Source: Tetracentron sinense (lineage: Eukaryota > Streptophyta > Magnoliopsida > Trochodendrales > Trochodendraceae). From it: a stretch of 64,000 nucleotides of DNA. Under the pieces are notes generated by a model. The model worked only from the letters and a program-made list of their open reading frames with translations. It made no database searches and was not told where the DNA came from. This document shows positions 15,235-61,635 of this stretch, piece after piece. The translations under genes and the position numbers were made by a program. How positions within the stretch are numbered: the stretch's first letter is position 1; each line of letters begins with the position of its first letter. The stretch lies in NCBI GenBank assembly GCA_015143295.1, contig CM026557.1, positions 28,057,760-28,121,759 of the forward strand. Reading direction: 5' to 3'.

Positions 15235-15354
15235 CTGTCGGCAGGTGACGGCGGAGCAGCAGCTCCATTTGATATCTGTGCTCCGAGTCAATGGGTGGAG
15301 GAGGAGTACGTCGAGGAGCCTTTTGAGGAACCTCCAGTAGAGGGTTACCATTAG
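15235..15354 (+). CDS. LTR microORF, S2 copy (39 codons, CTG in place of ATG)
   Basis: The frame is open from CTGTCGGCAGGT to TAG. The product has SAG, AAAPFDIC, WVEEEYVEEP and a short acidic tail, almost the same as TekC. The start ATG has become CTG and the Pro before Trp has become Gln. The reading frame and length equal those of TekC (39 codons). Substitutions against TekC fall largely at third positions. The function is unknown; it may now be inactive because the start is lost. Confidence 0.5.
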   Translation: MSAGDGGAAAPFDICAPSQWVEEEYVEEPFEEPPVEGYH

Positions 15355-17015: not shown

Positions 17016-17060
17016 ATCGCCTAGAAATGTTTTTTTAGGGTTTTTCTCAACCCAAACACC

Positions 17061-17068
17061 TATATATA
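17061..17068 (+). promoter_or_regulatory. TATA box of TekA 5' LTR
   Basis: TATATATA follows CCCAAACACC. The 3' LTR counterpart is at 37703-37710. Transcription should start about 30 bases downstream. Confidence 0.6.
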
Positions 17069-17991
17069 CCACATTTTCGGGGAACCAAGGTTTCTCACTC
17101 CTAGAGAAGGACTTTTTAAGAGAAAAGAGAAGAAACTTAGGTTTCCAAAAGGGGGGTTTCTCTCAAGATCAAGGAAACCCACAAATTCAATCTTCAAGCT
17201 TCTCAAGACCAAAGAGGGGAGGAAGGATCATACAAGCCAAGGCTTTTTTCATGAGCTAAGCTAAGAAGAAACGATCACAAAGGGGATTTCGTGAGAAGAT
17301 CAAGAGGCATTCAAATCCTCTTCTCCAAGGCCTTTCAAGCTTGGATCTCGTCCTCACGCGCCATTGGAGCTTGGATCTTCATCCACAAGCTTGGGTTTTA
17401 CTTCTACAAGCCTCCTCAAGCTTTTTCAACCCTTGGATCAAAGAGATTTTTATCCCCTAAGGTAACTACACTTCACTACATAATTTGTCCTACACCATAT
17501 GGTAAATCAAGATAAAAACATGTGATTTATGATGTGAACTATATTGTGATGTTTCTATGCACTAGACTAAATAATGAAAATGAGTTATTATGATTCAAAG
17601 ATGAACACTTTACAAGCCAGTTCTTATAAACCATATTGTAATCAAGATAAAAGTGGGAATATTGATGTCAACTACATTGGGATGCTTCTATGCCTTAGAT
17701 TAAGGAATGAAAAGTGTGTATTAGTATTCAAAGATGAAAAGCATGTTAAAATACATAAGTTTTGAAGAAACTCCAAGAGTAAAACTATATGTTTCGATAA
17801 AATGGAATTATATGGACTAAGTGTATATGGGCTTTTGCTATGGATAAAAATATGAATTATGGGATATATGTAAAGTGTTTCTTTTTGGTCTACCATGCTA
17901 CTCACAAGTGATTATATGCACGTGTATTGTATGATCAAATTTTTATCATATGTGTATGTGTAAAGCAAGTGAAAAATTTAAGTGTGTGTAT

Positions 17992-18821: not shown

Positions 18822-18962
18822 ATGTCGGCAGGTCAGTTCGACATCCCCAACCTGGAGCCATGGGTTGAAGAAGAATATGAGGAAGAAAGGGATCCACATA
18901 TCCCTATGCAGACACAGGAGGATAGAGACCTAGATAGGTGGCCCTATCTAGACTACTACTGA
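18822..18962 (+). CDS. LTR microORF, TekA 5' copy (46 aa)
   Basis: ATGTCGGCAGGT opens a 46-codon frame ending TGA. The product is MSAG, QFDIP, then EPWVEEEYEEERDP, then an acidic, aromatic tail ending in LDYY. The MSAG start and the FD and PWVEEEY core match S3 and TekC, while codons differ at third positions (GTT GAA GAA GAA TAT here, GTG GAA GAG GAG TAC in TekC). That pattern suggests selection on the peptide. No signal peptide or membrane segment is seen. It sits in the transcribed leader part of the LTR, before gag. Its function is unknown. Confidence 0.6.
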   Translation: MSAGQFDIPNLEPWVEEEYEEERDPHIPMQTQEDRDLDRWPYLDYY

Positions 18963-23101: not shown

Positions 23102-23239
23102 TCAAACATGAGGCCACCACTTGAGCAACCTCTGATGCTCCTGAAGCTCAGCAGGAGTGGACTCTTCCTCTATGTACTCCTCCTCAACCCACGGCTCCTG
23201 AGGGCGCTCGCCACGGATATCGAAGGGACCTGCCGACAT
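23102..23239 (-). CDS. LTR microORF, S3 copy (45 aa)
   Basis: The ATG at 23239 opens MSAG, PFDIRG, then QEPWVEEEYIEEE, then a tail ending WWPHV and TGA. The frame can be read upstream to 23305, but the ATGTCGGCAGGT start is the one shared with TekA and TekC. It keeps the PFD and PWVEEEY core with its own codon choices (CCG TGG GTT GAG GAG GAG TAC). The C-terminal half differs in sequence from TekA and TekC, so only the first 25-30 residues appear constrained. Its function is unknown. Confidence 0.6.
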   Translation of the reverse strand: MSAGPFDIRGERPQEPWVEEEYIEEESTPAELQEHQRLLKWWPHV

Positions 23240-23269: not shown

Positions 23270-24750
23270 CGTATACAAACCACTAGATAGTAATATCGTA
23301 AACAAGAATACAACGTGTACATATCACAATTTAATCATCTCACATGCATTCCTGAAATCAGAGCGCGGAAAACAAAATCGTATCATGTGCATATATCTCG
23401 AAAAATACTATCGGAAAACATCTTTTTATCATCTTTTGTCTTTTACATCTTCTTATCATCTTTTGTCGAAAACATCTTCTTATCATCTTGTACCTTTGCA
23501 TATACGGGTATTTAAAATACCTTGGCTTTTATCTTTTATTATCCTGTACGGGTATTTAAAATACCTTGGTATTCATCATTTGCTACCTCCGGAGTAGGAC
23601 AACTAGTACCTGTACCCACATAAGCTGGGTGGCCTAATGTTCTCCTCACCTTCGGCTACCTTAAGAGTAGACGACCAGTATCCATCTCCTTTCCGGGCGG
23701 CCTGCTATCATCGGAGTCCGATGCCAGTATCCCTTTCCCTTTCAGGCGGCCTGCTATCGTCGCATCCCTGTCGGCTTTTTCCGTATACTTTCCATCTTCT
23801 TGTATTTCTTGTAACATCTTATGCTTCTTGTATTTTCCGTATGTATCTTGTGCTTTCCGTATACATCTTGTGCTTCTTGTACTTTTCTTATACTTCTTTT
23901 GCTTCTTGTACTATTCATGTGGTTCATTTACATCTTATACTTTTCATGTAATTCATTTGCGTCTTATACTCTTCTTCTTCTTATTCTTGTATTGCATCTT
24001 ATATACATGTATTTCTTCTTTTGGGATACCCATAATTTAGAAAAACTCGATCATGCGTATGCATGTGTCCGTATAGCAGTTGTGATATAACATGGTAGAC
24101 ATTAGGGAAAACCCTTTACATATGGTCATATGTCTGATACTCAACATAATTCATCCATCACCATAATCCATATACAATAACATCACACCATTCCAATCAC
24201 ATTTAAAATAAGGTTTTTCTACTTTTTCTTCCCAAAACTTGTTGCTTTTAACATGCTTTTCATCTTGGATAATAACATATCGAACAACTCAAAAATTACC
24301 ATCTTTTATTTGTTGGTTGAAAGCATAACATCATCACATTTAATTCACACCACCATTCATGGGATTTTATCTTGATGTAGAAAGGGTTTCATGAAATCAA
24401 TTGCTAGAAGAGTGTATTTTTACATATGAGAGGCTATATATAACTATACTTGTCAAGAAAATCATGCTTTTCATTAAGGGTTTATGAAATTAGAACCTAG
24501 TAGAGTGTATCTACCTTATGGGATGAAATCCCTTTGATCCAATGCTTGAAAAGGCTTGAAGAAGCTTGTAGAAGCGAAACCCAAGCTTGATGTTGGAGAT
24601 CCAAGCTCCAATGGCGCGTAGGAGCAAGATCAAGGCTCGATTTGTGCTCTTCTTCTCCAAATCCAAAAACCCCTCTTGCAATCCTCCACTCTCTTCCCTT
24701 CTCTTCTAAGATCTAGGTTTAGGGTAACCCAAAACCCCTAAAAAAGATCC

Positions 24751-24760
24751 CCTATTTATA
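24751..24760 (-). promoter_or_regulatory. TATA box of S3
   Basis: TATAAATAGG on the minus strand, downstream of the palindrome cluster. Confidence 0.6.
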
Positions 24761-24824
24761 GGCCAAGGGGTGAAAACCCTAAAAAATCATGGACTAAAGA
24801 GTTTGATTCGCGCACCTACGATCG

Positions 24825-28100: not shown

Positions 28101-28244
28101 TCAACAAAAGTCGAAGTCTCGACACCTATCTATAGGACCAGCGTCCCGATAATGATCCATGGATGGCTCCGGGTCGAAGTATTCTTCCTCTACCCATGGT
28201 TCCGTGCCACATAGATCAAACGGAGCCCAAGTAGCTGCCGATGA
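28101..28244 (-). pseudogene. LTR microORF relic in S4 (47 open codons, no ATG)
   Basis: The frame from TCATCGGCAGCT is open to TGA and contains WAPFDLC and EPWVEEEYFDPEP. The start region differs by a one-base change that removes the in-frame ATG. The core still matches the other LTRs, using codons CCA TGG GTA GAG GAA GAA TAC. It is likely untranslated in this form, but it is good evidence for past constraint. Confidence 0.5.
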
Positions 28245-28276: not shown

Positions 28277-29174
28277 CGTATACAAACTAATAACAATAAA
28301 GCATTAAGCATAGAGCATACGAATCATGGAGAATGAAATCCATAAAAACATGTAAGGGCGTAGAAACCTTGAAATAACATATGAGATGAGATTCGAAACC
28401 AAACCCAAAACTGTAATCGTGTGAGTCATGCGATAATCATAGCTTGTGCGTTCTTGTGAGTTCATGGAGTTACTTAGAGTCATTATGATCCGTAGAGACA
28501 TGGAGATACCATAGAGCACATAGAGCATATCCTTAGAGATCTTAGAGCGTTACATTTATGATCCGTAGAGCTTGTGAGACGTTCTTAGAGCTTATCATAG
28601 AGTTCATAGAGTTTCTTGTGAGCATAGTATGATCCGTAGAGCTTGTGAAACGATCTTAGAGAAATCATTGAGTTACTTAAAATCGTTTTTTATTAGTCTT
28701 TTTATGAAAAACACCATTTTCGTACTTTGAGAAATCCATGGAAAACATCGATTCATGTGAGACATGCGAGCATATGAGCATATGAGAGAAATTATCATAT
28801 TTAAGCATAAAAATCCCTTAGAGGTATTTCATCAAATACTTAGAGTGCATCATAATAGTATCTTTCATACTTTCACACCATAACATCCAAGATATACATA
28901 TATATATATAGCATAGAGTGAGGAGAATCATATATAACAACTAGTAGGATTGCAAGATTGGTAGTAGAGTGTATCTACCTTGGTGAAATCAATGAGTTTG
29001 ATTCCAAAAAGCTTGAACAAGCAAGAACCTTGAGTTCTTGGTTGAGAATCATCAAAGAGAGCTTGATCTTCCTTCAAGCTTGATCACAAGTAGTTCCTCT
29101 CCTTCTTCTCTCTCTCAAAATCTCCTAAGATAGGGCACAGAGGGATTCTGAAATCCTAAGGCACGAACTCAGCC

Positions 29175-29182
29175 TATTTATA
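29175..29182 (-). promoter_or_regulatory. TATA box of S4
   Basis: TATAAATA on the minus strand within GCCTATAAATAGGC. Confidence 0.55.
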
Positions 29183-29631
29183 GGCAAGGGGTGGTGGTTA
29201 AAGTCGTAAACACCCTTAAGGAAGAAAATCTGCGTATGACCGGTGGCTTACCAGTTGATCGGTGGTTTCAACCGAGCTATCGGTTGAAAACACCCTCTCT
29301 GTACAATTTCCCCATACAAAAAATTTAACCGCTCGATAGCTACCGAGCGATCAGTAGAAGACCGGTCGATCGGAGGTATCACCGAGCGATCGGTGATCCC
29401 CAATTTTGCTGAAAAAGCTTGTTTTCACTACCTCAGACCTTTCCAATCCCAGTTCCAACACCTTTAGTGCTTAAAACACACTCCTTAGGGATATGTAGAC
29501 CTATTAAAACATGCACGCCAATTATCAAAACTCGTATATTAATCATAAGACCCCTAAGTGTACAAAACCACACTTGGGCACTATTCACACACTATTCACC
29601 AATACGTGAGATGAAAATTCGGGGCTCTACA

Positions 29632-35294: not shown

Positions 35295-36516
35295 ATGAGG
35301 CGTGACATCTGAGGTAGAGGGTCTCGGACCCGAGGAAATAGAGTAGACATTCCCATAGGAGATGAGCAGCCAGACTTGACTCAGATCCTTGGGGCTATGG
35401 CAGCGGCTATGACTAGGCTTGCAGACAGGGTTGATACTCCTGTTGCTGCTACGCCTGCACCTGCACCTCCTCCTGTGTATCACATAGCAGGACTTGAGAC
35501 GTTTCGGAGATTGAAGCCTCCTACTTTCTATGGGACTACTGATCCCATGGTCACAGAGGCTTGGGTCATGCAGTTAGAGAAGACCTTCCGAGTTCTTCAC
35601 TACACGGATGAGCAAATAGTTGAATGGGCTTCCTTCTTAATGGAAGGTGAAGCCGAGCATTGGTGGAGGTTTGCACTAAGGCAGAGGGATGCCGCCAAAG
35701 CGGGGACACCATGGACATGGGAAGAGTTCCTAGACGCTTTTTACGAGCAGTATTTCCCTAGGTTCATGAAGGAACAGAAGGAGAAGGAGTTCATGTTCTT
35801 GGAACAGGGAGAGATGAGCGTGGTCTAGTACGGGGCCAAGTTCGTTGGACTCTCGAGGTTTGCTCCACATCTAGTCACATCTGATAGGATGCGAGTCAAA
35901 AAATTTGAAGGTGGCTTGAGACCTTCCATTCGAGAGCGAGTTGCTATACTGTAGGTGGAAACCTGGAAGAAAATTATGGGTAAGGCGAACATCGCTGAGA
36001 AACATTTCGATGAGTCTCTCCTGAGGACTGATAGTGGCCTAGTGAGAGGCATGGTTCGAGGCTAGTACAGTGGGCTAGTACCACCAGAGAGAAGGATCAG
36101 GCTTGCCCCATACCAGACTACTATGTCTGCACCAGTATAGAGGCTTTCATTTGCACCACAGGTTCCTCGCTCTACTCCTCCACAGGTGACTCGACCTGTG
36201 CAGCCCGTTTCTTCCACTTCAGGGCAAGAACCTTGTAGGAATTGCGGGCAGAAGCATACCGGAGAATGTTGAAAGTTGGTAGGTGGGGGCTTCCACTGTG
36301 GTCTTCCGGGACACAGGATTAGGGATTGTCTAGGACGACCGTCTCAAAGAGTCCAGCCTAGAGAAAGCAGACTCCCGATTAGGCAGGAGCCTCAGCAGGG
36401 ATCTACTCAGGTCACGAGGCCCCCACGACCCGCTCAGCCGCCTCGTCAAGCGAATTAGGGTAGGGTCTTTGCCTTAACCGAGCAAGGCACACGCCCATCC
36501 GAGGGTGTCGTGCCAG
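35295..36516 (+). pseudogene. TekA gag pseudogene
   Basis: The start ATG at 35295 aligns with the TekC gag start (MRR..GRG). Motifs are DEQPDLTQILG, FRRLKPPTFYG, EGEAEHWWRF, TPWTWEEFLDAFYEQYFP, then two zinc knuckles, CRNCGQKHTGEC and FHCGLPGHRIRDC; the second has lost its first Cys. The frame has no indel over 1.2 kb but has seven stops: TGA at 35310 and 36270, TAG at 35826, 35952, 36063, 36138 and 36456. Where TekC or context allows a comparison, these fit CGA-to-TGA or CAG-to-TAG changes. It ends at a conserved CCAG/GTATG donor-like site. No pol follows. Confidence 0.85.
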
Positions 36517-36787: not shown

Positions 36788-39629
36788 TGTAGAACCCCGG
36801 AACTGAGTTCATTGTACGAGGAACAGTGTCAGTAAATAATTCCCTTATATGGTGGGTGTAAAGGCCTAAGGCCTTCCATTGTGTTCTTGGTATGAAGTGA
36901 GTCAAGTGAAGGTTTTTAGGTGAGTGTGTTGAGTCTCAAAAATGAGAGTATAGGTATACTCTATGTGGGTGAAAGCAAGGGTATAAATACCCTAAGTGCT
37001 AATGCATGGGTTGTAAGTGAATAGTGCTAGTGCACGAAGCATAAAGAGGCCAGGGCCTCTCATGCACATTGGTGTGAGTAGGTGGGTTACAACCCTATGG
37101 GTTAACGAGTCATAAGGTGTGACTATGGTTTTGGAACCAAGGGAAAAGACTGTGAAAGCACTCGAAGTGTTCTAGGTGTTGAAGTGATATGTTTCGGCAT
37201 TTCCCTCCACTTTATGAAGCTCTAGTTTAGTCACCGTTGATCGGAATTAAGTGATTCTTGATTTTTTTGGAAAGGCATTGGAACCCTCTTCAAGGTTCAT
37301 GTTTACCATTTTCCCAGATTTTGAGTCGGGGTTAAGCTAAACGTCCGATTTCCAAAATCGGATTTGCTGCAATATGCATTGACGAAACCCATTCGCAGAT
37401 CAACTGGCTTTAGAGCCTTTTTTGGAAAAGTAAAACTCAAAATTTGAAGTTGTGTAACACATGAAAGTTGTTCCCCTTCAAAATAAAAATTCAACGCAAG
37501 TTGAATTGTCAAAATCCAACCATTGAGTCAAAAGTTATGGTCAAAATACCGAAGAGCGTTTTTGTAGACAAACTCACTCGAGCGAGATCCAAACCCGCTC
37601 GAGCGAGATCAACCAAAATGGTGTTTTTGAATCCCGGGAGCAACCCGCTCGAGCGAGATCGCCCAGAAATGTTTTTTGGGGGTTTTTCTCAACCCAAACA
37701 TCTATATATACCACATTTTTGGGTGACCAAGGTTTCTAACACCTAGAGAAGGACTTTTTGAGAGAAAAGGGAAGAAACTTAGGTTTCCAAAAGGGGGTTT
37801 CTCTCAAGATCAAGGAAACCCCCAAATTCAATCTTCAAGCTTCTCAAGACCAAAAAGGGGAGGAAGGATCATGCAAGCCAAGGCTTTATTCATGAGCTAA
37901 GCTACGAGGAAACGATCACAAAGGGGATTTCGTGAGAAGATCAAGAGCAATTCAAATCCTCTTCTCCAAGGCCTTTCAAGCTTGAATCTCGTCCTCACGC
38001 GCCATTGGAGCTTGGATCTTCATCCACAAGCTTGGGTTTTACTTCTACAAGCCTCCTCAAGCTTTTTCAACCCTTGGATCAAAGGGATTTTTATCCCCTA
38101 AGGCAACTACACTTCACTACATAATTTGTCCTACACCATATGGTAAATCAAGATAAAAACATGTGATTTGTGATGTGAACTATATTGTGATGTTTCTATG
38201 AACTGGACTAAATAATGAAAATGAGTTATTATGATTCAAAGATGATTCAAAGATGAACACTTCACAAGCTAGTTGTTATAAACCATATTGTAATCAAGAT
38301 AAAAGTGGGAATATTGATGTGAACTACATTGGGACGCTTCTATGCCTTAGATTAAGGAATGAAAAGTGTGTATTAATATTCAAAGATGAAAAGCATGTTA
38401 AAATACATAAGTTTTGAGGAAACTCCAAGAGTAAAACTATATGTTTCGATAAAATGGAATTATATGGACTAAGTGTATATGGGCTATTGCTATGGATAAG
38501 AATATGAATTATGGGATATATGTAAAGTGTTTCTTTTTGGTCTACCATGCTACTCACAAGTGATTATATGCACGCATATTGTATGATCGAATTTTTTTCA
38601 TATGTGTATGTGTAAAGCAAGTGAAAAATTTAAGTATGTGTGTGGGAGGATACTAGTGGACTCCACTCCTTGTAGGGTGGGCATTAGTCATCCGGTCCCA
38701 AAGAGGAATAATATGTGTAAAGAAGGGAGGATACTAGTGGACTCCACTCCTTGTAGGTTGGGCATTAGTCATCCGGTCCCAAAGAGAAATAATATGTGCA
38801 AAGAAGGGAGGATACTGGTGGACTCCACTCCTTGTAGGGTGGGCATTAGTCATCCGGTCCCAAAGAGAAATAATATGTGCAAAGAAGGGAGGATACTGGT
38901 GGACTCCACTCCTTATAGGGTGGGCATTAGTCATCCGGTCCCAAAGAGAAATGATATGTGCAAAGATGAGAGGATGCTAGTGGACTCCACTCTTCGTAGG
39001 GTGGGCATTAGTAATTTGGCCCCAAGGAGAAACGAAATGTGCGAAGGTACAAATAAAAGAGGTTAATGAATCATGTGCACGTGTATGTGGGATAAAGCTA
39101 ATGGACTCTACTCCTTGTAGGGTAGGCATTAGTTAAGTGCAAGTGTACACTAATGTACTCTACTCCTTGGAGGGTAGGCATTAGTCATGCGTTAGTGTAC
39201 TCTCCCACGAAAGATATATGCAAAAGATAAGTGTAACAAGGCCATGTGAAAACGATATGTGAAAAGAGTATATGCTTTACAAAGTATCACACATATGTAT
39301 TTAAAAAGGGGTTTTTTCCGTATGTGTTTCATTGCATGTGTACTCTATGAACTGCCTATATGAAATCATGTAATACTACGATATATTATTAGTAGTTTGT
39401 AGACACTGAGTATTCCATGCTCAGTCGTACATGTTATGTCGGTACGTTAGTTCGACATCACCAACCCGGAGCCATGGGTTGAAGAAGAATACGAGGAAGA
39501 AAGAGATCCACATATCCCTATGCAGACACAAGAGGATAGAGACCTAGATAGGTGGCCCTATCTAGACTACTACTGAGTGGAGAGACTATGAGGTTTCATT
39601 TTGTATTTTGATAGGTGGGCATGTCCACC
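36788..39629 (+). repeat. 3' LTR of TekA, cut by TekB
   Basis: It matches the 5' LTR from its first base to position 19015, then breaks at CCACC (39625-39629), the putative TSD of TekB. The last 200 bp should lie outside the window. The 81-bp repeats are at 38644-39048. The donor-like site reads AAG/GCAACT here (38100) instead of GTAACT. Confidence 0.88.
39436..39576 (+). pseudogene. LTR microORF, broken copy in TekA 3' LTR
   Basis: It has the same length and position as 18822-18962, but GCA-GGT-CAG has become GTA-CGT-TAG, giving a stop at the fifth codon. The downstream PWVEEEY core is intact. Confidence 0.55.
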
Positions 39630-40130
39630 TGTAGAGACCCGAATCTTTTTCATGTCTTTATTACAAGTATTAAGGGTATTATGGTCATTGTGATGTTTTA
39701 ATGTTTATGTATTTATATCTAATTAGTATAGTGTGATTAAGGCTTAATCAAACTTGTAGCAAAGGGATGTCATATCACACCCAGAACTTTAGGAAGCTCC
39801 AGTTTTGGCACCGTTTATTGGAATTGAGTGATTCTTGAACCATTGGAAAGGTATTGGAACCCTCTTCGAGGTTTATGTATAATGTTTTTCCATATTTTTA
39901 GTCTAAGCTAAGTCAAAAGGCGGGTTTTCCAATGTTTTGTCTGATGGAATTATAGATTAATCAACTTTGGGGGCTTTTTGGTCCATAATTAAAAGAGAAT
40001 TTGGAAATTCTAAAATACCAAAAATGTTCCTTTTCGAAAGACAAATCCAACGCAAGTTGAATCGTCGAAATCCGACGAACGAGTCAAAAGTAATGGCCAA
40101 AAAAGTAAAATGGGTCAAAAATCTGCAGAA

Positions 40131-40396: not shown

Positions 40397-41580
40397 GGGA
40401 TCCTATTTCGGGGTATTAGAATACTCTACCTATTTCTAACCTAATTTGACAAAAAGGGAGAGAAAACCTAGGGTTTTGAGAGAGGGATTTCTTTGAGAAG
40501 AAGAAGATAGCTTGGATTTTGCAAAGAGAGCTTGGAAAGCATCCCCAAATCACCTCGGGAGCATTTTGAATCCAAGGGAAGGATTCCTAAGGTCGATATA
40601 CTATCCTAATCAACTCTATTTCAATGTTTCGTGAATATTAATATGATAGAATGGAGATTTGATGCATTCTCTCCTAATTTTCTATGAAGTAAGCTAATTA
40701 TGGATGAGAAATGTGGATGGAAATGTGGATTATATTGTGGATAGAATGTATGGAGGATGAGAAATGTATGGAGGATGGGATTAATATGTGGATGTGAATG
40801 GATTGTATGGATGAAATATGGTTTGATGAATGCTTGAAAATGTAGAAGGGCAATGGATTCATATTACGCGTACTCAAGGTGTTTGCGAAAATGCTTGAGA
40901 GGATAAATGCTATTATACTCTTCTGAAATGGTGGTAAATTGATTATGAGTTGTGCTATGAATTATGATAAGATATGTATATGTGATTGTTTGATAAGTAT
41001 GTCTAATTACTTGCATGGAAATTGGCAGTTGGGAAGGTAAGAACTTAGAGGAAAATCTCTCAAACCGGGAATTCTCTGACTATTTGGTATGGGACAGTAT
41101 AATGGAGTTTCAATGGTGGGAGATCGGAATCTAAGCAATTACCAACTCGAATGTTAATTTCGACACTTAAGCACATATGCACGTGTATGTTAAGATAAGA
41201 GTCTCACAAGTCACACATGTGGACCACAAGCATGAGCATGGCATACGTATGACATTCTGAATAAGCATAAGCATGACATGGTCCGTATCCGCCAAGAACG
41301 GCATGTCAACCATTTGATTCTTAAGCATGGTCCGTGTAGAGCCCCAGACTTTTTTATGCTTAATACATGACACTTTCGTTGTCATCTTGCCTTTTATGTG
41401 GTATGATTAATAAATGAAGAAGAATTTGGAAATTTTGAAATGTCAGAATTGTTCCTCTTCGAAGTACGAACACAACGCAAGTTGAATCGTCAAAATCGGA
41501 CGAACGAGTCAAAAGATATGGCCAAAACAGTCTGTACCTGTAGGAACTCGTAGCACAGACAACGTATACTGTGTGCATCT

Positions 41581-41672
41581 GTTGTACAACTCACCACGGG
41601 CACGTTGTGCAGCTCACCACGGGCACGTTGTACAGCTCACCACGGGTACGTTGTACAACTCACCACGAGTTG
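41581..41672 (+). repeat. 23-bp tandem repeat, 4 copies
   Basis: Units GTTGTACAACTCACCACGGG.. start at 41581, 41604, 41627 and 41650, leading straight into the 24/25-bp array. The second LTR has the same (59183-59274). Confidence 0.8.
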
Positions 41673-42153
41673 GCACTATTCATGGCACCACGAGTTGCAC
41701 TATTCATGGCACCACGAGTGGCACTATACATGGCACCACGAGTTGGCACTATTCATGGCACCACGAGTTGGCACTATTGATGGCACCACGAGTTGGCACT
41801 ATTCACAGCACCACGAGTTGGCACTATTCACAGCACCACGAGTTGGCACTATTCATGGCACCACGAGTGGCACTATTCATGGCACCACGAGTTGGCACTA
41901 TTCATGGCACCACGAGTTGCACTATTCATGGCACCACGAGTTGCACTATTCACAGCACTACGAGTTGGCACTATTCATGGCACCACGAGTGGCACTATTC
42001 ATGGCACCACGAGTTGCACTATTCATGGCACCACGAGTTGGCACTATTCATGGCACCACGAGTTGCACTATTCATGGCACCACGAGTTGGCACTATTCAT
42101 GGCACCACGAGTTGCACTATTCACGGCACCACGAGTTGGCACTATTCACAGCA
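41662..42153 (+). repeat. 24/25-bp tandem array in TekC LTR1 (about 20 units)
   Basis: The unit core GCACTATTCATGGCACC is followed by ACGAGTTG or ACGAGTG. The mix of 24- and 25-bp units rotates the frame, so all three forward frames stay open by composition alone. The ACTATTCA part echoes the GTGAATAGTGC motif of other gypsy LTRs in reverse complement. The array sits just upstream of the expected transcription start. Confidence 0.9.
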
Positions 42154-43097
42154 CAATGTGTTTAGCACTATTCACGGTCCTCGGGTCATTGCAGAAATCC
42201 CAGTAAGGGTATTACGATCTTTTGGTCAGTTCACTCTTACCTTAAGAGTTTAACCCGAGCCTTTAGGGCTTCATTCGACACTTAGAGAGTTTGAGAGAAT
42301 AGGAGAAAGGGGAGAAGGCGATTCCAACCTAGGGTTTCCATTTTGGAGAGAAATCAAAGGGTTTTGAAACCCTAGATCAACCTCCAGCCCATTTTTCTTC
42401 AAGATCAAGGCACAAACTCGTGAGGAGCATCTCCTCAAACTAGGGCAGCAGCTACACAGTCGTTTTGGAAAGGGGTTTCTTCCTCATTTCTTCAAAGTCG
42501 GTACCTTTTGCTACCCTCCTAGTTATAGTTCCTCTTTCCCCTTCTTTTCTCTTCATTTTCTTTCATTTACACATGTGCTATGAGATGGATGAATGGTAAA
42601 TGGTGAATGGTGAATGGTGAATGGAGATGGGATGGGCGATTGGATGCCAATGGTTGTGTGTGATGAACAAATGGGGAAGGGCATTGTTCCAATAATGAAC
42701 GTACATGTACGATTTGAGTAAAACCCATCTAGAAAAGCATGTTGTAGGGTAAATCCATAATGAACACACCATGTTTGATGAAATGCCAAGGTGAACACAG
42801 TGAGCTGAAAATCTGGAAATGCATGCCTAATAAATTATAAATATTACTAGGGACTATGATAGTGTGTTTTCCTACTTTCCCATAATGCTATGAATATTAC
42901 ATTACTCAATCTTTGATGCTATATGTGTTGTGAAATTACCCAATTGTCATCTTTAAATTTGAATGTAAGTATGTACACGGTTTCCACGAGCACGGCATGC
43001 ATGGCATGATTTATTGAGGTTTTCAACAACATGGTTAGAGGTGGGACATATCCTACGATATGTTTTACCTCGCTTTTCACAAGAAGACAAGAACCAA

Positions 43098-43247
43098 CAT
43101 TCCACGAGGGGTCTCCCCTCACTCACAAATGCATATCATGAAGAAGGGTCTCCCTTCCCTCGCAAGTACATACATATCATAAAGAAGGGTCTCCCTTCCC
43201 TCGCAAGTGCATTGCATAAAGATGGGTCTCCCTTCCCTCTCAAGGCA
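43098..43247 (+). repeat. about 40-bp repeats with AGGGTCTCCCTT hairpins
   Basis: Four units with the palindromic core AAGGGTCTCCCTT or GGGGTCTCCCC and CGCAAGT lie in the putative LTR intron. They are the positional counterpart of the 53-bp (S2) and 81-bp (TekA) repeats. Confidence 0.7.
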
Positions 43248-43568
43248 TCTCACAAGTGCATCTCACAAGAGAATCTCACAAGTTACATGATCACAAGCAA
43301 GCACGCATGACATGCATGACATGACACGACATACAAGAGTCAAGCAAGATAGACAAGACAAGATTTCAAGTACGAAAAGAGATTTCAAGTCAAGTCAAGT
43401 GCACGATGTTTTCAAGAGGATTTATCGGCTTTCTACGAATTTCAAGCATAATTATAAACTGCTTTATTTCCTTGTATGATATGAATTTTTTCCATTTGAC
43501 ATATAAATTGCTCCTGATCATGTGTTGCCATTTCTATGCTATAATTGTTGGTTAGTATTTAGTACCCG

Positions 43569-43587
43569 CTGAGTATTCCATGCTCAG
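43569..43587 (+). promoter_or_regulatory. conserved LTR palindrome (TekC LTR1)
   Basis: CTGAGTATTCCATGCTCAG, followed by CCGTACTTCTT and the microORF start. Confidence 0.7.
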
Positions 43588-43598
43588 CCGTACTTCTT

Positions 43599-43718
43599 AT
43601 GTCGGCAGGTTCTGAGGGAGCTGCTGCTCCATTTGATGTTTGTGCTCCTGGTCCATGGGTGGAAGAGGAGTACGTCGAGGAGCCTTTGGAGGAACCTCAC
43701 GTAGAGAGTTATCAATAG
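43599..43718 (+). CDS. LTR microORF, TekC LTR1 copy (39 aa)
   Basis: ATGTCGGCAGGT opens 39 codons ending TAG. The product has MSAG, an Ala-rich GAAAPFDVCAP, then PWVEEEYVEEPLEEP and ends ESYQ. It is strongly acidic, with no membrane or signal segment. The codon pattern against S2, S3, S4 and TekA shows mainly synonymous change in PFD and PWVEEEY. It precedes gag by about 650 bases in the leader RNA and would also be present at the 3' end of the transcript if R extends past it. It could be a translated upstream ORF or a peptide with its own role. No known domain is recognised. Confidence 0.62.
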   Translation: MSAGSEGAAAPFDVCAPGPWVEEEYVEEPLEEPHVESYQ

Positions 43719-43781
43719 GTGGTGATTAGATTCTGAGTGGATTAGCTGTGGGTGAGATGAGAGTTAGATTTATGTATTTTG

Positions 43782-43795
43782 GCGGGCATGTCCGC
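43782..43795 (+). other. LTR hairpin (TekC LTR1)
   Basis: GCGG pairs with CCGC around GCATGT, 63 bases after the microORF stop. Confidence 0.58.
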
Positions 43796-44012
43796 ACTTT
43801 CGTATGGATTGCTTTTTGTATAAACTTGGATTTGTGTATTTATATACATAGAGGTTTGGTAGTCGTCCGCTGTGCTATGTTAGAGTATGTTTCCACTGTT
43901 TATATCCTCTATTGTACATGCTCTGTGGGTTTTGCAGGTTAGTTGTCAAGCAAGTCATGATTAGTCGTCCAAAGTTCACTCTAACTCCTAGGGTGGGTTT
44001 TGGGTCGCGACA

Positions 44013-44366
44013 GAAGTTGTATCAGAGCTTAGGCTTTAGGTCTCTAGGGTCACTTAGAATCTTATACCACGGCTTGACAAGAGCATATGTCAGGAAACAA
44101 GTTAGGAAGAAAGTAAGTCGGAAGAGAGTCTTGATCCAAGTGTAAGACTAAACTGTAGTCTTAGTCAAAATGGTTGTTTCAACCAAGTACGAGCCTTAGG
44201 AACGCTAGAAAACCAAAGTATAATATTATAAATACTCTGATGACTTAATGCGATGTATATTAGTATTATACAACTAATACAAATTGGATTATTGTGAAAT
44301 GGCATTGAAGTAAACTGTGGTTTCAAGTTAGACTCATGTGGTGTTATTATTCTCAGGACTTGAGTC
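44013..44366 (+). other. TekC copy 1 primer site and leader
   Basis: The primer site reads TTGTATCAGAGC (44017-44028), against TGGTATCAGAGC in copy 2, a G-to-T change that should weaken priming. The rest is a short leader to the gag ATG. Confidence 0.8.
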
Positions 44367-45740
44367 ATGAGACGGAACACACGGGGTCGTGGACCACATA
44401 CCAGAGCTTCCTCTTCTTCACGGGATGAGGATGAGCAGCCGGACCTCTCTCAAGTCTTAGGCTCTATTGCTGAGACACTCGCCATACTGGCGGCTCGGCA
44501 GGCTATACCATCATCGGCGGCACCTACTCCACCGCCCGCAGCTCCAGTACATCGTACCGCTGGAGTTGAGGCATTCAGGAGATTGAGGCCTCCACCATTC
44601 CATGGGAGTGTGGACCCTCTTGCTGCGGAGGCATGGATCCTCCAGATGGAGAAGATCCTTACGGTCCTCTCACCTACAGAGGAGGAGAGGGTAGCATGGG
44701 CAGCTTTCATGCTAGAAGGCGAAGCCCACCATTGGTGGTTGTCCGCACTGAGGACGAGAGATTTGACCATGCAGGGTCTACCTTGGACTTGGGAGGAGTT
44801 CAAGGATACTTTTTACAAAAAGTATTTTCCGATTGGAGCACGGGAAAAGAAAGAGAGAGAATTCATCAACCTTGAGCAAGGTTTGATGTCGGTGGCACAA
44901 TACGAGGCCAAGTTCTCAGAGTTATCGAGATTTGCGCCTCATATGGCTGCTACTGAGGCAATGAAGGCGAGGAGATTTGAGCAAGGGCACAAGGATGTGA
45001 TTATGGAGAAGGTGTCCGTTTTCAGGCATACTACCTACCCTGAGGTAGTAGACAAGGCCTTATTGGTCGAGGCCAATTCAGAGACAGTGTCCAAGAAGAG
45101 GGAGTTGGCGAGAGGCCAAGCTAGTAGTTCAGCACCTCCAGAGAGGCGGACTCGTTATCAGTATGCGTGGCCAGCACCATCGATGAGGCCTTCTTATGCG
45201 CCTCCAGCTCCACGGCAGTATGTGCCTCAGGCACCGAGACCGCAGGCTCTTCCAGCCCCACGACCTGTTGCACCTCAGACGATGAGGTATGCTCCACTTC
45301 CGGCCCCTCCGACTTATGCACACGAGGTCTGCACTTCATGCGGACGAAGGCACCCGGCAGGGGATTGCCGAAGGGCATCGGGTGGATGTTTTCATTGTGG
45401 TCGCCAGGGCCATATGATCAGGGATTGCCCCAGTCGGCATTTACCAGGTCAGTCTCAGGGGATTAGTCCACCAGCACGCCCAGCAGGATCATATCAGGCG
45501 TCATCTCAGACTACCCGGTCTACACCTCAGTCTCGTCAGGCAAACCAGGGGCGTGTATTTGCTTTGACAGAGGGTGATGCACTTGCATCTGATGATGTGG
45601 TGCAAGGTACGCGTTTGGAATTATTTTCGTTATTCGTGATTGATATGTTCTGTTTTATTCCTTGTGTACATACTTGGTATGATATATATATATACCTATG
45701 TGTATACTCTGTTGATGCATGGATTAACTCCGCTAGTTAA
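44367..45740 (+). CDS. gag: TekC copy 1 gag (457 aa unspliced; 413 codons before the intron)
   Basis: Gag forms the virus-like particle and binds the RNA. Start ATG 44367 (MRRNTRGRG). Residues about 75-160 hold the gypsy Gag core ([37 protein letters not shown]). Residues about 260-320 are Pro/Ala-rich. Two zinc knuckles follow, [13 protein letters not shown] and [14 protein letters not shown], as in del/Tekay chromoviruses. An intron-like donor lies after codon 413 (VVQ, then G/GT). Without splicing, translation ends inside the intron at 45738-45740. The frame is intact and almost identical to copy 2. Confidence 0.9.
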
Positions 45741-45748
45741 AATTTCAG
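45607..45748 (+). other. putative gag-pro intron (142 nt)
   Basis: Donor CAAG/GTACGC and acceptor AATTTCAG/GAACC. Removal joins GTG GTG CAA G with GA ACC CTA and puts gag in the same frame as protease. The segment is T-rich with an AT microsatellite. In copy 2 it is 2 nt shorter (63524-63663), which changes the read-through Gag tail but not the spliced product. That is expected of an intron. RNA evidence is not available here. Confidence 0.7.
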
Positions 45749-47835
45749 GAACCCTACTAGTCAATGAGTATTTGGCTCGAGTATTGATTGATACCGGGTC
45801 TACTCATTCGTTTGTCTCGCCGAGTTTTTCAGAAGGTTTTTCTGCAGGGCCAAGTCAGCTAGAACCGGAGTTAGCCATTTCGACTCCTCTCGGCAAAACA
45901 GTATTGGCAGATAAAGTGTATAGAAATAGTGTGGTCCAAGTTGGAAGCCACGAATTGGCGGTTGATCTCATCGTCCTTGGATTCCAAGACTTTGATGTTA
46001 TATTGGGAATGGATTGGTTAGCAACACATCATGGGCATGTAGCTTGCTTTGAGAAAATGGTACTCTTCAATCCAGTAGAAGGAAAACCATTCCACTTTCG
46101 CGGGTTGAGAAGTAGATCTATTGCTAGTTTTGCGGCGTTGAGCTTAGCTAACCCCGAGGTAAAGGACTCATCGACTATTCCGGTTGTGAGTGAGTTCCTG
46201 GATGTATTTCCAGAGGAGTTGCCAGGATTGCCTCCAGATAGGGAGATTGAGTTTATGATCGAGCTTGCACCAGGCACAGCTCCTGTTTTCAAAGCTCCAT
46301 ATAGGATGGCCCCTATTGAACTCAAGGAGTTGAAGACTCAGTTGGAAGAATTACAAGGCCTTGGTTTCATTCGACCAAGTGTCTCACCGTGGGGTGCCCC
46401 AGTGTTGTTTGTTAAGAAGAAGGATGGCTCGATGCGGATGTGCGTCGATTATCGGCAATTGAACAAAGTCACTATAAAGAATAGGTATCCCTTGCCTAGG
46501 ATTGATGACTTGTTCGATCAGTTGAAGGGAGCGAGATTTTTCTCGAAGATAGATCTTCGATCAGGTTATCACCAGTTGAAGATTAAGGTGGAAGATGTCC
46601 CCAAAACTGCTTTCAGGACTCGATATGGGCACTACGAGTTCTTGGTGATGCCTTTTGGACTCACGAATGCGCTGGCAGCCTTTATGGATTTGATGAACCG
46701 GGTATTCCGGCCACACCTTGATAGGTGCGTGATTGTATTTGTGGATGACATCTTGGTCTATTCCCAGACACAGGAAGATCACACACGCGACCTATGCCTT
46801 GCCTTGGAAATGCTAAGAGAGCACAAGCTATACGCCAAACTTAGCAAGTGTGAGTTTTGGTTGGAAGAGGTGGCATTCCTAGGCCACGTTGTTTCTGCAG
46901 AAGGTATATCGGTAGATCCAAAGAAGATCGAAGCAGTTATGAGTTGGGCGAGGCCCAAGAGTGTTACCGAGATACACAGCTTTCTTGGGTTGGCAGGCTA
47001 CTACAGGAGATTCGTAGAGGGTTTCTCTAGCCTTGCTGCACCGCTCACTTACCTGACAAGGAAGAATGCCAAGTTTGTATGGAGTGATAAGTGCGAGATC
47101 AGTTTCACGGAACTGAAGAAGAGGCTTACTACAGCTCCTGTCCTTACAGTGCCATCCGGACCTCTTTGGTATGAGGTGTACAGTGATGCCTCACACGTTG
47201 GACTTGGATGTGTGCTTATGCAACACAAGAAAGTCATTGCCTATGCATCAAGGCAGTTGAAGGAGCATGAAAAGAATTATCCCACGCACGACTTGGAGCT
47301 TGCGGCGGTCGTGTTTGCACTTAAGATTTGGCGTCATTACCTTTATGGGGTGGAGTTCTATGTGTTCACTGATCACAAGAGTCTCAAGTATCTCTTTTCC
47401 CAAAAGGAGCTGAATCTAAGGCAACGGCGTTGGATGGAATTTTTGAAAGACTATGATTGTACCATTCAATACCACCCGGGTAAAGCAAATGTAGTGGCAG
47501 ATGCTTTGAGTAGAAGACCTCAAGGGTTGTTAGCACATATGTTGGTTCAAGAATGGAAGCTACTAGAAGATTTGGCAAATCTGGACATCAGTGGGAATGA
47601 CTCTGTCCGTGGTCCTACCTTGGCAAATGTTACGGTTCGGCCGTACATTATAGATTTGATCCAAGAATATCAAGCCATGGATGCAGAATTGTTGGCTTAT
47701 CGGGACAAGGAAGTTGCTAAGGGTAGTGAGGACTTCTCTCTCACTAGTCGGGGTGCTATCACATTCAAGGGAAGACTGTGCGTCCCAGCCAATGCAGATC
47801 TTCGAAGAGAAATTTTAGATGAAGCACACCGTTAG
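45749..47835 (+). CDS. pol: TekC copy 1 pol, first part: protease, RT, RNase H
   Basis: The spliced frame starts [21 protein letters not shown]. Protease active site DTGS is at 45790-45801. RT motifs follow in order: [24 protein letters not shown] is split around 46370-46440, then [11 protein letters not shown], then FVDD (46738-46749). RNase H motifs are YSDAS, the [11 protein letters not shown] helix, FTDHKSL and [10 protein letters not shown]. About 694 codons follow the splice point. A TAG at 47833-47835, where the family usually has Ser before K/R-Y-x-x-HPG, separates it from integrase in the same frame. An upstream Met at 45640 lies in the intron and is not a likely start. Confidence 0.88.
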
Positions 47836-49074
47836 AAGTACACAGTGCACCCAGGGGGTACAAAGATGTACCGGAACCTCAAGAGTCACTTTTGGTGGCG
47901 GAATATGAAGAGGGAGGTTGCGGAATATGTGGCACGGTGCTTAGTGTGCCAACAGGTGAAAGCAGAACACATGCGACCCGCCGGTCTATTGCATTCCCTT
48001 CCGATTCCCGAGTGGAAATGGGAGAACATATCCATGGATTTCATAGTTGGCTTGCCAAAGACGGCAAGGGGCTCAGATGCGATATGGGTAGTAGTGGATC
48101 GTTTGACAAAGTCCGCTCATTTCTTACCCTACCGAACTACTTTCAACTCAAGTCAGTTGGCTGCACTATACATCAAGGAAGTAGTTAGATTGCACGGAGT
48201 GCCTGTTAGTATTGTGTCGGATCGGGATCCAAGATTCACGTCAAGATTTTGGAAAAGTTTCCAGGAGGCTATGGGTTCCCGACTTGATTTCAGCACCGCT
48301 TTTCATCCACAGACGGATGGACAAACCGAGAGAGTGAACCAAGTCATTGAAGACATGCTTCGGGCTTGTATGTTGGATTTCAGAGGCAGTTGGGAAGAGC
48401 ACTTGCCATTGGTTGAATTTGCCTATAATAATAGCTATCAGGCAAGTATTCAAATGGCACCATTTGAGGCCTTGTATGGGCGAAGTTGTAGGTCTCCTCT
48501 CTATTGGGATGAGGTAGGCGAAAGGAAAGTACTTGGTCCGGAGTTGATTGAGCAAACTGCAAACACAGTTAAGATCATCCGGGATCGATTGAAAGCCGCT
48601 CAAGATCGCCAGAAAAGTTATGTGGACACACGCCGTAGGGACTTGGAATTTCAAGTAGGGGATCAAGTTTTTGTGAAAGTATCTCCTAGCAAAGGGATCA
48701 TGAGATTTGGGAAGCGAGGCAAGCTCCGTCCTCGGTATGTTGGGCCTTTTGAGATTATCACACGGGTTGGTGAAGTTGCTTATCGAGTAGCTCTTCCACC
48801 TCACATGGCTACAGTTCATAACGTCTTCCATGTGTCCACGCTTCGGAAGTATCTTGCGGATCCTTCGCATGTCATAGACTTGGAACAGTTGGAGATTCGA
48901 GAGGACCTCACCTTGATTGAAAAGCCAGTCCAGATTTTAGATCGAAGGAATCAGGTGCTTCGCAACAAGACAATCCCTTTGGTTCTTGTGCAATGGCAAC
49001 ACCATGCTCGGGAAGAAGCTACATGGGAGCGTGAAGTCGAAGTCAAAGCAAAGTACCCAGAATTACTTGAATGA
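47836..49074 (+). CDS. pol: TekC copy 1 pol, second part: integrase and chromodomain-like tail
   Basis: It is in frame with the first part, after the single TAG. The zinc-binding HHCC module runs HPGGTKMY to CLVCQQVK. The catalytic core has D at 48037 (MDFIVGLP), D at 48220 (VSDRDPRF) and E at 48349 (VIEDMLRAC), a complete DDE set. The GPY/F module is PRYVGPFEIITRVG. The C-terminus, ILDRRNQVLRNKTIPLVLVQ then EEATWEREVEVKAKYPEL, matches the divergent chromodomain of plant chromoviruses, which guides insertion to heterochromatin. It ends TGA at 49072. If the TAG is not bypassed, this part is not made. The first in-frame Met after the stop is at 47845. Confidence 0.88.
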   Translation, partial: KYTVHPGGTKMYRNLKSHFWWRNMKREVAEYVARCLVCQQVKAEHMRPAGLLHSLPIPEWKWENISMDFIVGLPKTARGSDAIWVVVDRLTKSAHFLPYRTTFNSSQLAALYIKEVVRLHGVPVSIVSDRDPRFTSRFWKSFQEAMGSRLDFSTAFHPQTDGQTERVNQVIEDMLRACMLDFRGSWEEHLPLVEFAYNNSYQASIQMAPFEALYGRSCRSPLYWDEVGERKVLGPELIEQTANTVKIIRDRLKAAQDRQKSYVDTRRRDLEFQVGDQVFVKVSPSKGIMRFGKRGKLRPRYVGPFEIITRVGEVAYRVALPPHMATVHNVFHVSTLRKYLADPSHVIDLEQLEIREDLTLIEKPVQILDRRNQVLRNKTIPLVLVQWQHHAREEATWEREVEVKAKYPELLE

Positions 49075-49176: not shown

Positions 49177-49327
49177 TGTAGAGCCCCAGACTTTTTCATG
49201 CTTAATACATGACACTTTCGTTGTCATCTTGCCTTTTAAGAGGTATGATTAATAAATGAAGAAGAATTTGGAAATTTTGAAATGTCAGAATTGTTCCTCT
49301 TCGAAGTACGAACACAACGCAAGTTGA
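49177..49327 (+). repeat. TekC middle LTR, first 151 bp
   Basis: Same start as LTR1. Broken by Cop2 inside the conserved U3 block (after AAGTTGA); TSD GTTGA is 49323-49327. It continues at 59083. Confidence 0.92.
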
Positions 49328-56895: not shown

Positions 56896-59082
56896 TGTTG
56901 GACATATATGCCCTCGAAAGCCAATAAGAAACTTTTCTATGTTGATTAGACAAGCATCATATTCACACAACCAACTATAAAGGGTATTTATATTAATTAC
57001 TGTCTCATATGATGATGACATAAAGTTCCATAGGTAACATTGTAGGAAAATCATGCAAAGGTTGCGAGGAGATATGATTTTTCGGTTCCTTGTAAACCTA
57101 ATATTGTTCGAAGCCTCTAGAGTACTGGTTGGGTGCCGTACTTCATCATGGCTTGCACATGTGTAGTTCTATGAGATAGTGTGATGAATCTCATTCACAG
57201 AGAGTGGTGACTCTTGACTAACATGTGAGTATATGTAGCAAGTACATAATACTGAACGGGGTCACTAGTGGATACCCTATGGAATACACTGTCAGATTGT
57301 ATTAGGGTTATCCATTTGACAAATTGTCTTTAGACCTGAGAGGTTAACATTTTCTCAGACATTTGTCTATATGGCTTTGATGTGCCAATCGGCAATGTCC
57401 AATACACAGGACTAACTCCGGGTACGTTGGGTCATGTACACTATGTTTGGAGAAGTGTGTAAACACTCAATAAGGAATCCACAACTCCTTAATTGGAGAT
57501 AATGATATCAAGGTGATACTTGTTGAAGTGAACTGTTAAATCCAGTACTGGTGCTTTTCGGTAAAATGGTCTTTATCGAAGTTAATATTTTTAATATGGA
57601 AAAGTATATATAAATATATATGTCAGTTCTTTTCTAATGTTTTCTTCAAAAGTGTTTTGGAGGTTTAGTTCAATGAAAAGTAATCATGAGAAAGAGTTCT
57701 ATTCATAAGCTAGGGACTAAGACAGTGGAATTGTTCCAATCCCGGAAGCTTACATGTGATATCGGAATGTGGAAGGATTTATTTGTAAATATATTGTGAG
57801 ATGATACTTACAAGCAATTCTCTAATTTCTGGAGGTTAATCACATTGTGTTAATGGACATTAATTGTGATTGGTGGAAGTCCAGGGACTTAGATAACATT
57901 CTATGATCCTAATGGAGTTTTAGGAAAGGTGTTTCCTAGTAACAATGCTTCAACCAAAAAGGTGAAGTACTTGGTCCCACAACCGGAAATAGGAGATCCC
58001 TTTAGATCCCACACACAAGGACCTTCTTAAAGTATTTAATTTAATTTATAATTAAATTAATTAATTTCTCTAAGTAATCACTATATGGTATAGTGAAGCT
58101 CTAAAAGGTGGAATCACATTAGATGTGAAAAACCAAATGGGTAGGACCCATTGGAAATTATTATAAAAGAATAATTCAAGTGACCAAAAGGGTTTTGGAA
58201 ACCCTTTAGGCATGTAGGGTGGGACCCACCTAGGGTGGGACGCCCACTTTATGGAGGAAGTTTTATTTTAATTAGTTTCTAATTAATTAACACCTTATTG
58301 GATAAGGTTAGTTAGTTAGTTAGTTAATTAGTTACTAATTAAAGATTCCCTAATTGTTAGGGATTCCATTAGTTAGTTACTAATTCAAGATTCCTTATTG
58401 GATAAGGATAAGATTAGTTACTAATGGATAAGGTTGGTTTCTTTTAAGATTAATCCTAATTGGATTAGGAGAATAATCAATAAAGGAAACTATTGAGGAA
58501 TCCTAATTGGATTAGGATAAGGTTAATGAATTATAATTGGATTACAATTCAAGCAACCAAGAGGGAACTTATATAAAGGATTGGATGCCCAGCCCTTTAA
58601 TATACATAATTCTCCAGAATTTTTTCTTCTCTTCCTCTCCTAAAAAAAAACCTCACACCCTCCCCTCTCTCTCCTTGAGGTGTATGGTCACACCCATCTC
58701 TCTCTTCTTTTTGTCTTCTTGATTGGATCTTGAGGAAAAGCAAGAATTCATCTTGTTCATCAAGAAAGGTTCTTGATTAATAAAGATTGGATCTTTATTC
58801 AAGATTCCTAGAGCTGGAAATTTGGAAGGGCAATTAGCTTCCATTAGAGAAAGCTTTAAAGGAAAAAGAAGGTTCGTGTGAATCGACAGGAGACTTGACA
58901 CTTGTGAAGTTTTGCGAGTACTATTCTAACGTGGATTTGACTTAACAATTTCAAAGTCGCAAAGGTGAATGTTATTCTAACCTTCATTGAATAAAATCAA
59001 TTAGAATCTTAGTCAGATCTTGGGATTCGATGTATGCCCCCCAAGAACTGTGTTTCTAAAATTAAAAAGTGGCATACTTTCA
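56896..59082 (+). repeat. 3' LTR of Cop2 (2187 bp)
   Basis: Nearly identical to the 5' LTR. It is preceded by the polypurine tract and followed by TSD GTTGA. Confidence 0.93.
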
Positions 59083-61515: not shown

Positions 61516-61635
61516 ATGTCGGCAGGTTCTGAGGGAGCTGCTGCTCCATTTGATGTTTGTGCTCCTGGTCCATGGGTGGAAGAGGAGTACGTCGAGGAGC
61601 CTTTGGAGGAACCTCACGTAGAGGGTTATCAGTAG
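61516..61635 (+). CDS. LTR microORF, TekC middle LTR copy (39 aa)
   Basis: Same frame and length as 43599-43718. It differs by one Ser-to-Gly near the C-terminus and a silent CAA/CAG change before the stop. Start, PFD and PWVEEEY core are intact. Confidence 0.62.
   Translation: MSAGSEGAAAPFDVCAPGPWVEEEYVEEPLEEPHVEGYQ

Follow-up and report, generated by a model that had tools for sequence, protein, structure and literature searches.

Coding sequence that lies in a retroviral 3' long terminal repeat (LTR) and is reached by splicing is familiar from sag of mouse mammary tumor virus (MMTV) and nef of human immunodeficiency virus (HIV). The papers cited by accession here are represented by excerpts, and statements about them refer to those excerpts. 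In BARE1, a Ty1/copia element of barley, an intron at the gag/protease boundary decides between Gag alone and Gag-Pol (PMC3735527), alternative splicing of EVADE/ATCOPIA93 gives a Gag-only mRNA (as described in PMC12786077), and in Drosophila copia ~2.9 kb of pol is removed to give the Gag mRNA (mentioned in PMC3735527). Cer1 CERV, a Ty3/gypsy element of Caenorhabditis elegans, has a spliced mRNA in which exons in the gag frame are followed by a downstream coding part (PMC10309623). Plant LTR elements are generally without introns, with few exceptions (PMC12786077), and Ogre and CRR are plant Ty3/gypsy elements with spliced transcripts (PMC3735527, PMC12786077). The subject of this study is a stretch of 64,000 nucleotides from Tetracentron sinense (contig CM026557.1, positions 28,057,760 to 28,121,759; the window), in which Ty3/gypsy elements carry a small open reading frame (ORF) inside their LTRs. 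A preliminary description made from the letters alone had taken this ORF for a self-contained microprotein that begins MSAG. We conclude that it is probably an alternative terminal exon of Gag located in the 3' LTR rather than an independent gene, and that the stand-alone microprotein is probably wrong.

The ORF at 43599-43718 has 39 codons, begins with ATG and codes for MSAGSEGAAAPFDVCAPGPWVEEEYVEEPLEEPHVESYQ. All eight sites listed for it in the preliminary description were found at or near the positions and on the strands given there, and the particulars also hold: the copy at 13076 is decayed, that at 15235 starts with CTG, that at 39436 has an internal stop, and that at 28244 has lost its ATG. 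When all six frames of the window are searched for PWVEEEY with at most two changes, seven of the eight are returned; the eighth is the decayed copy at 13076. The sites at 43599 and 61516 sit in two copies ~98.7% alike, to which the copy at 15235 is ~82% alike; 18822 and 39436 form one pair, and 23239, 28244 and 13076 represent others. The features at the ORF, with a slash marking each proposed splice junction, are as follows.

43568..43588, + strand: conserved hairpin GCTGAGTATTCCATGCTCAGC just upstream of the acceptor, -10.8 kcal/mol
43599..43601, + strand: ATG of MSAG
43602..43608, + strand: proposed 3' splice site TCGGCAG, with an in-phase AG in 72 of 79 sequences
43609..43718, + strand: coding exon in the 5' LTR, opening immediately behind TCGGCAG/ with the split codon G/GT and continuing with SEGAAAPFDVCAPGPWVEEEYVEEPLEEPHVESYQ to the stop
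61526..61635, + strand: LTR exon in the resumed LTR, the place able to serve as terminal exon
15245..15354, + strand: LTR exon of the 15235 copy (LTR ~82% alike; CTG replaces ATG)
18832..18962, + strand: LTR exon, 5' LTR copy of a gag-only element
23102..23229, - strand: LTR exon of the 23239 copy
28101..28234, - strand: LTR exon of the 28244 copy (hairpin ATG lost; AG/CT)

Most differences between families in the codons for PFDx and PWVEEEY fall at third positions, as had been noted: those at codon positions 1, 2 and 3 number 1, 1 and 8 between 43599 and 18822, and 1, 0 and 7 between 23239 and 28244. A peptide search of the plant's own genome gave 30628 first-look candidates, and all 150 that were scored matched (150 of 150); recurrence of the peptide is far above chance. 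Three peptide copies had no match in Pfam, and window positions 43000-44400 had none in Rfam. In viral contigs the hairpin was found at 0 places, the peptide as one pattern-matched stretch with none confirmed, and pol not at all.

Selection was measured on 82 anchored sequences, in which the exon was taken from AG/GT to the stop. Six come from the window; nine are from loci selected with the peptide (L001-L008, of which L001 and L004 are window copies); 28 are from loci L009-L038, picked by the hairpin alone at 0.07-29.3 Mb of contig C1; and 39 are from loci L039-L078, taken from the hairpin places listed between 29.6 and 32.6 Mb of C1. The motif frame is present in 79, an in-phase AG in 72, and a length of at least 20 codons in 69, from which 25 representatives were drawn that are mutually <85% alike (300 pairs). 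Over these pairs the pooled proportions of nonsynonymous (pN) and synonymous (pS) differences are 0.331 and 0.736. Their ratio is 0.447 in the exon frame; the two remaining frames give 1.054 and 1.129 and, out of 7673 codon pairs, have stops in 512 and 974. In the core PWVEEEY columns, pN is 0.113 as against a pS of 0.847. The ratio of nonsynonymous to synonymous substitution rates (dN/dS) is 0.192 over 480 pairs of 70-90% identity, which are not independent of one another although the signal is one-sided. The LTR frame, with a tail of ~28-53 residues, is protein-coding and is kept by purifying selection, a property that it shares with coding of the MMTV sag type. The purifying selection proposed in the preliminary description is therefore supported by dN/dS and by the comparison of frames; neither a dN/dS near 1 nor equally strong conservation of third positions, which had been named there as outcomes that would speak against a peptide, was observed.

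The 5' edge of the coding stretch has the character of a splice acceptor. The in-phase AG of the 72 sequences is mostly in the form TCG[GA][CT]AG/GT. At third positions, 68 of them have G in TCG and 71 have T in GGT, whereas GCA varies at its first position (63 G, 8 A, 1 C) and its second (62 C, 9 T, 1 G); its third position, the A of AG, is fixed by the choice of rows. Constraint on TCG GCA GGT is thus the reverse of the coding pattern, which fits a YAG/GT splice acceptor and speaks against an MSAG start. In the 25 representatives, the T content is 0.40 in the 100 bases before the AG and 0.23 in the 100 bases after it, being higher upstream in 25 of 25, and the GC content is 0.39 before and 0.54 after. 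Plant introns are U-rich and exons GC-rich (PMC3735527), and the contrast across the AG resembles the intron/exon contrast stated in that paper.

The ~60 bases directly upstream of the ORF (TTAGYTAGTAGYTTGTA..GCTGAGTATTCCATGCTCAGC..TCGGCAG), which the preliminary description had passed over, are strongly conserved as DNA. The hairpin GCTGAGTATTCCATGCTCAGC at 43568-43588 is perfect. The distance from the end of the hairpin to the exon is 20-23 bases in 24 of the 25 representatives, and the hairpin, together with the TTAGYTAGTAG block that precedes it, would fit the end of an intron with a folded branch region. The exact 19-base core of the hairpin occurs at 19489 places in the 1.16 Gb assembly (9725 forward and 9764 reverse; reversed control, 0), and these sites, with the peptide candidates, indicate a very large element group.

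An in-frame upstream ATG is lacking in 7 of the 25 representatives, so that the LTR start codon of its own that marks coding of the MMTV sag type is not general, and the start codon kept across families that a stand-alone microprotein should have is not found. At least three family types keep the peptide without an in-frame start: L044, L071 and L078, which have TGA directly before SAG; L033; and L068 and L074, the last two types having no in-frame ATG. These look as if they were built without a start. The copies at 28244 and 15235 look like single losses of the ATG, and L009 and L031 like decay. In eight ATG-poor sequences the pooled pN is 0.196 and pS 0.613 (28 pairs); this set includes L054, which has in-frame ATGs elsewhere. 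Compensation by the hairpin ATG, coming into frame once the MSAG start is lost, fitted the first loci and was rejected because it fails for the three family types without a start. The self-contained MSAG microprotein of the preliminary description is therefore upheld as to selection on the peptide and not well supported as to a stand-alone start, against which the splice-like constraint and the start-less families under selection speak.

The proposed partner of the LTR acceptor lies at the end of gag. The element that carries the ORF at 43599 is a Ty3/gypsy element by the order gag, protease, reverse transcriptase (RT), RNase H and integrase (Pfam) and by its LTRs, primer-binding site (PBS) and polypurine tract (PPT). 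It may belong to the Tekay/Del clade, the name used in the preliminary description; its Pfam Chromo match (E 6.2e-5) scores 23.3 bits, just below the curated cut-off of 25.1.

41335..44012, + strand: 5' LTR, TGTAGAGCCCC..GTCGCGACA, followed by the PBS
44367..45606, + strand: gag exon ending ..GAT GTG GTG CAA G/ (Pfam Retrotrans_gag, Ty3_capsid, zf-CCHC)
45607..45748, + strand: inferred gag/protease intron gtacgc..tttcag, 142 nt, phase 1
45749..49074, + strand: pol, with protease, RT, RNase H, integrase and a weak chromodomain match
49177..49327, + strand: start of the 3' LTR after the PPT, broken by a nested insertion and resuming at ~59082

In this element the gag frame runs ..GAT GTG GTG CAA G/GTACGC and the protease resumes at ..TTTCAG/GA ACC CTA CTA GTC AAT, both in phase 1, and the second gag copy of the window has the same donor, at 63523. 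Junctions were compared in 11 elements for which the end of gag was available, two of them from the window and nine reached through loci; several belong to closely related families. The donor G/GTA[CT][GA]C is present in phase 1 in 11 of 11 and reads GTACGC in nine (..DVVQ G/GTACGC or near); an in-frame AG acceptor before [TAI]LLVNE is present in 7 of 11, with introns of 124-146 nt. A conserved donor at the end of gag and an in-frame protease acceptor, the features of splicing-controlled Gag expression, are thus found in 11 and 7 of the 11 elements, respectively. Several copies carry stops near the junction. Phase 1 is also the phase that the LTR exon requires. Elements reached from start-less LTRs (L071 with L086; L033 with L091) carry this donor together with gag and pol, although in the L071 copy gag has a stop as its last full codon. 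Two public gag-pol proteins, P0002 and the Vitis vinifera protein P0005, read straight through SDVV[TI]GTL at the junction, and the intron may accordingly be an addition rather than a general feature; these proteins are predictions and may hide a modelled intron. A different gag beside an LTR, at L087 upstream of L074, was uninformative, and L084, L089, L090, L092 and L093 had no gag or pol match.

From sequence, we infer that these sites are used in splicing, that the gag donor is the partner of the LTR acceptor, and that the choice of acceptor sets the ratio of Gag to Gag-Pol. The pre-mRNA would start in the 5' LTR. Its leader may be spliced as well, from an LTR donor-like site, AAG/GTAGATACAC, to TTCTCAG/GA before the gag ATG, so that upstream ATGs are skipped. 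Two products could then follow. (i) Joining of the gag donor to the protease acceptor would remove the intron of 124-146 nt in frame and give Gag-Pol. (ii) Joining of the same donor to the acceptor in the 3' LTR would remove pol and give Gag with a short acidic tail (..FD..PWVEEEY..), the expected junction being ..GTGCAAG joined to GTTCTGAGG.. in the 3' LTR. Any role of the tail in packaging, assembly or stability is speculation. We also favor the wider proposition that, throughout a group of plant Ty3/gypsy elements, one isoform of Gag ends in an LTR-encoded exon, with one shared gag donor choosing between protease and LTR tail.

A gag-only element, also described in the window, bears on the pairing of donor and exon. 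It occupies window positions 16133-39630, is split by nested insertions, lacks pol and could be non-autonomous.

35295..36516, + strand: gag of the gag-only element, with 7 stops in this copy, ending ..GTC GTG CCA G/GTATGC
36788..39630, + strand: 3' LTR of the gag-only element, with an approximate end; the exon at 39436 contains a stop and no longer has its AG

This element keeps the phase-1 donor, and its PPT and 3' LTR follow ~260-270 bases on, with no pol match between. We regard it as a pointer to, and not proof of, the pairing of the gag donor with the LTR exon.

Several observations weigh against a terminal Gag exon. The gag-only element is represented by a single degenerate copy that has 7 stops in gag and has lost the AG of its own 3' LTR exon. 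No in-frame protease acceptor was seen in 4 of the 11 junction elements (none was found in L080, L081 and L091, and none is expected in the gag-only element), and L086 had neither an integrase nor a PPT match. The 11 elements are related, so their shared phase amounts to a one-in-three chance inherited as one event. The tail is present in none of the 11 gag relatives among public proteins (7996 candidates scored). The exact spliced-junction pattern, with tails beginning GTNCTGAGGGAGC, has 0 places in the genome, a figure that stands beside no control count for the gag-protease junction; it carries low weight because DNA copies of spliced BARE RNA likewise could not be amplified (PMC3735527). 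At the LTR itself, 7 of the 79 sequences have no in-phase AG, the start-less close pair L068 and L074 differs at 0 synonymous and 6 nonsynonymous sites, and an in-frame upstream ATG is present in 18 of the 25 representatives and the MSAG ATG in 16 of the 25.

These last counts are also what favors the first alternative, a stand-alone microprotein translated from the MSAG ATG, or from the hairpin ATG in other families, on an LTR transcript or subgenomic RNA. Where the hairpin lies 20 bases from the AG, the hairpin ATG is in frame in 8 of 8 (followed by a stop in L009) and the MSAG ATG is present in 7 of 8; the MSAG ATG is present in 7 of 10 at 21 bases and in 2 of 4 at 22 bases, and at 23 bases the hairpin ATG is in frame in 1 of 2. 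In addition, a TATA box and a splice-donor-like site upstream in three LTRs could yield a short LTR mRNA. Nevertheless, start-less families keep the peptide, and constraint on S-A-G is of the splice-site type and not of the codon type. All 16 MSAG ATGs have T at +4 and only 3 of the 16 a purine at -3, and protein searches found no small-protein homologue of the peptide (12 candidates, none at E<=1, and none in a further search). We consider this alternative unlikely.

The promoter and leader features of the LTRs are relevant to a second alternative.

17059..17070, + strand: TATA box CCTATATATACC, ~1.76 kb upstream of the 18822 ORF
24749..24763, - strand: TATA box GCCTATAAATAGGGG of the 23239 LTR
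29171..29185, - strand: TATA box GCCTATAAATAGGCT of the 28244 LTR
17459..17479, + strand: 5' splice-like site AAG/GTAACTACACTTCACTAC of the 18822 LTR
24498..24517, - strand: 5' splice-like site AAG/GTAGATACACTCTACTA of the 23239 LTR
28962..28981, - strand: 5' splice-like site AAG/GTAGATACACTCTACTA of the 28244 LTR
44350..44369, + strand: 3' splice-like TTCTCAG/GA..TCATG directly before the gag ATG, in 16 rows from 14 distinct places

In three families a TATA box precedes the ORF, by 1761, 1521 and 938 bases, and a location of the ORF in U3 was dropped because these boxes place it downstream of a promoter. The 43599 and 15235 LTRs have no TATA at the matching place; TATA-like matches occur elsewhere in them, at -763 and -97 in the former and at -1057, -149, -122 and -104 in the latter. 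In three LTR families the 5' splice-like blocks lie downstream of the TATA box. A conserved TTAGACTCATGT block is present upstream of the strongly conserved TTCTCAG/GA, which is likely to be the 3' splice site of a leader intron whose removal could bypass the PBS and upstream ATGs. As exon 1, a leader ATG with GTAAGT (44087) was rejected, being in the wrong phase and not retained in other copies, and the LTR's own first exon was rejected as an N terminus on account of stops or the lack of an ATG.

According to the second alternative, the acceptor is used in the 5' LTR, where the exon is joined as part of a leader to the LTR's own exon 1 through the AAG/GTAGATAC donor and the peptide is made from an unusual start. 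The TATA boxes are compatible with this, as are the conserved donor-like blocks that the same LTR has 0.7-1.4 kb upstream, and in exon 1 of the 43599 and 15235 LTRs no stop interrupts the last 24 and 17 codons, respectively, of the phase-1 frame. However, the 23239 and 18822 LTRs have a TAA in this frame immediately ahead of the junction, the 28244 LTR has a TGA in it four codons ahead of the junction, and exon 1 is without ATG in the 23239, 43599 and 15235 LTRs, which makes this arrangement decidedly improbable. It is more doubtful still that the LTR exon is joined to another donor, for example one near the end of pol to give an alternative integrase C terminus. The exon itself constrains the phase alone and not the partner, but inspection by eye of the pol end of one element (no pol-wide donor scan was made) showed weak donor-like sites, none in phase 1, and the gag-only element keeps the gag donor. 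Finally, a DNA or RNA element without a peptide (a protein binding site or a replication or packaging signal) would account for conservation of the upstream hairpin block as DNA and is nearly ruled out by third-position variation and dN/dS in the downstream part, which strongly disfavor a pure element of this kind.

Further features of the LTRs were noted. The TGTAGAGCCCC start of the LTR in the 43599 element follows the PPT in the 3' copy. The 3' LTR of this element comprises 49177-49327 and 59082-61929, after which come a second PBS and a gag at 62284; one LTR seems to be common to two tandem element copies. A long array of tandem repeats of ~24-25 bases each, open in several frames, lies inside the LTR at 41661-42175 and 59263-60092, and another LTR family has ~81-base repeats at 17950-18414.

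If a terminal Gag exon is correct, every new element copy brings the exon along twice. Given some twenty thousand exact hairpin sites in the genome, such an exon would amount to a splicing switch that can be tested in a highly abundant group of elements, and it would explain a selected peptide in LTRs. Elements without pol could complete their Gag through the same LTR exon. The way in which plant gypsy elements with one gag-pol frame make more Gag than Pol is only partly understood. The exon would also have a DNA signature, the hairpin with TCGGYAG/GT and PWVEEEY, by which it could be found in other plants. No report of a conserved Gag exon within an LTR was found among the open-licence titles and opening parts of abstracts that were listed, a scope outside which most subscription papers fall. 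A review of additional ORFs in plant elements is silent, in the excerpts, on ORFs in LTRs (PMC7264820), and a survey of LTR structure has no models for plant Ty3/gypsy LTRs, their lengths being too variable (PMC3601003). In a large survey of plant elements, extra ORFs were counted from at least 250 codons (PMC6317226), a minimum at which a short LTR exon is easily missed by annotation. We next set the elements of the window beside the systems named at the outset.

The products of MMTV sag and HIV nef are separate proteins with their own start, and their carriers are animal retroviruses. In BARE1, the 104 nt splice makes a stop just past Gag, and neither a distant terminal exon nor LTR coding is described in the excerpts (PMC3735527); in the Tetracentron elements, in contrast, Gag-Pol would stay in frame on removal of the 124-146 nt intron, and it is the LTR that would supply the alternative exon. 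EVADE/ATCOPIA93 is a copia element in which Gag ends at a premature stop after a frameshift, with no conserved LTR tail in the account excerpted (PMC12786077), and a conserved LTR-encoded tail is not mentioned for Drosophila copia in the corresponding text (PMC3735527). Compared with the downstream part of Cer1 CERV, the Tetracentron tail is a matter of ~28-53 residues inside the LTR. Ogre splices between ORFs and CRR removes rt, and the passages concerned mention no LTR exon for either (PMC3735527, PMC12786077). Spliced Gag RNAs are thus already known, and the LTR-borne terminal exon of Gag is, on the best reading, a new variant of splicing-controlled Gag expression.
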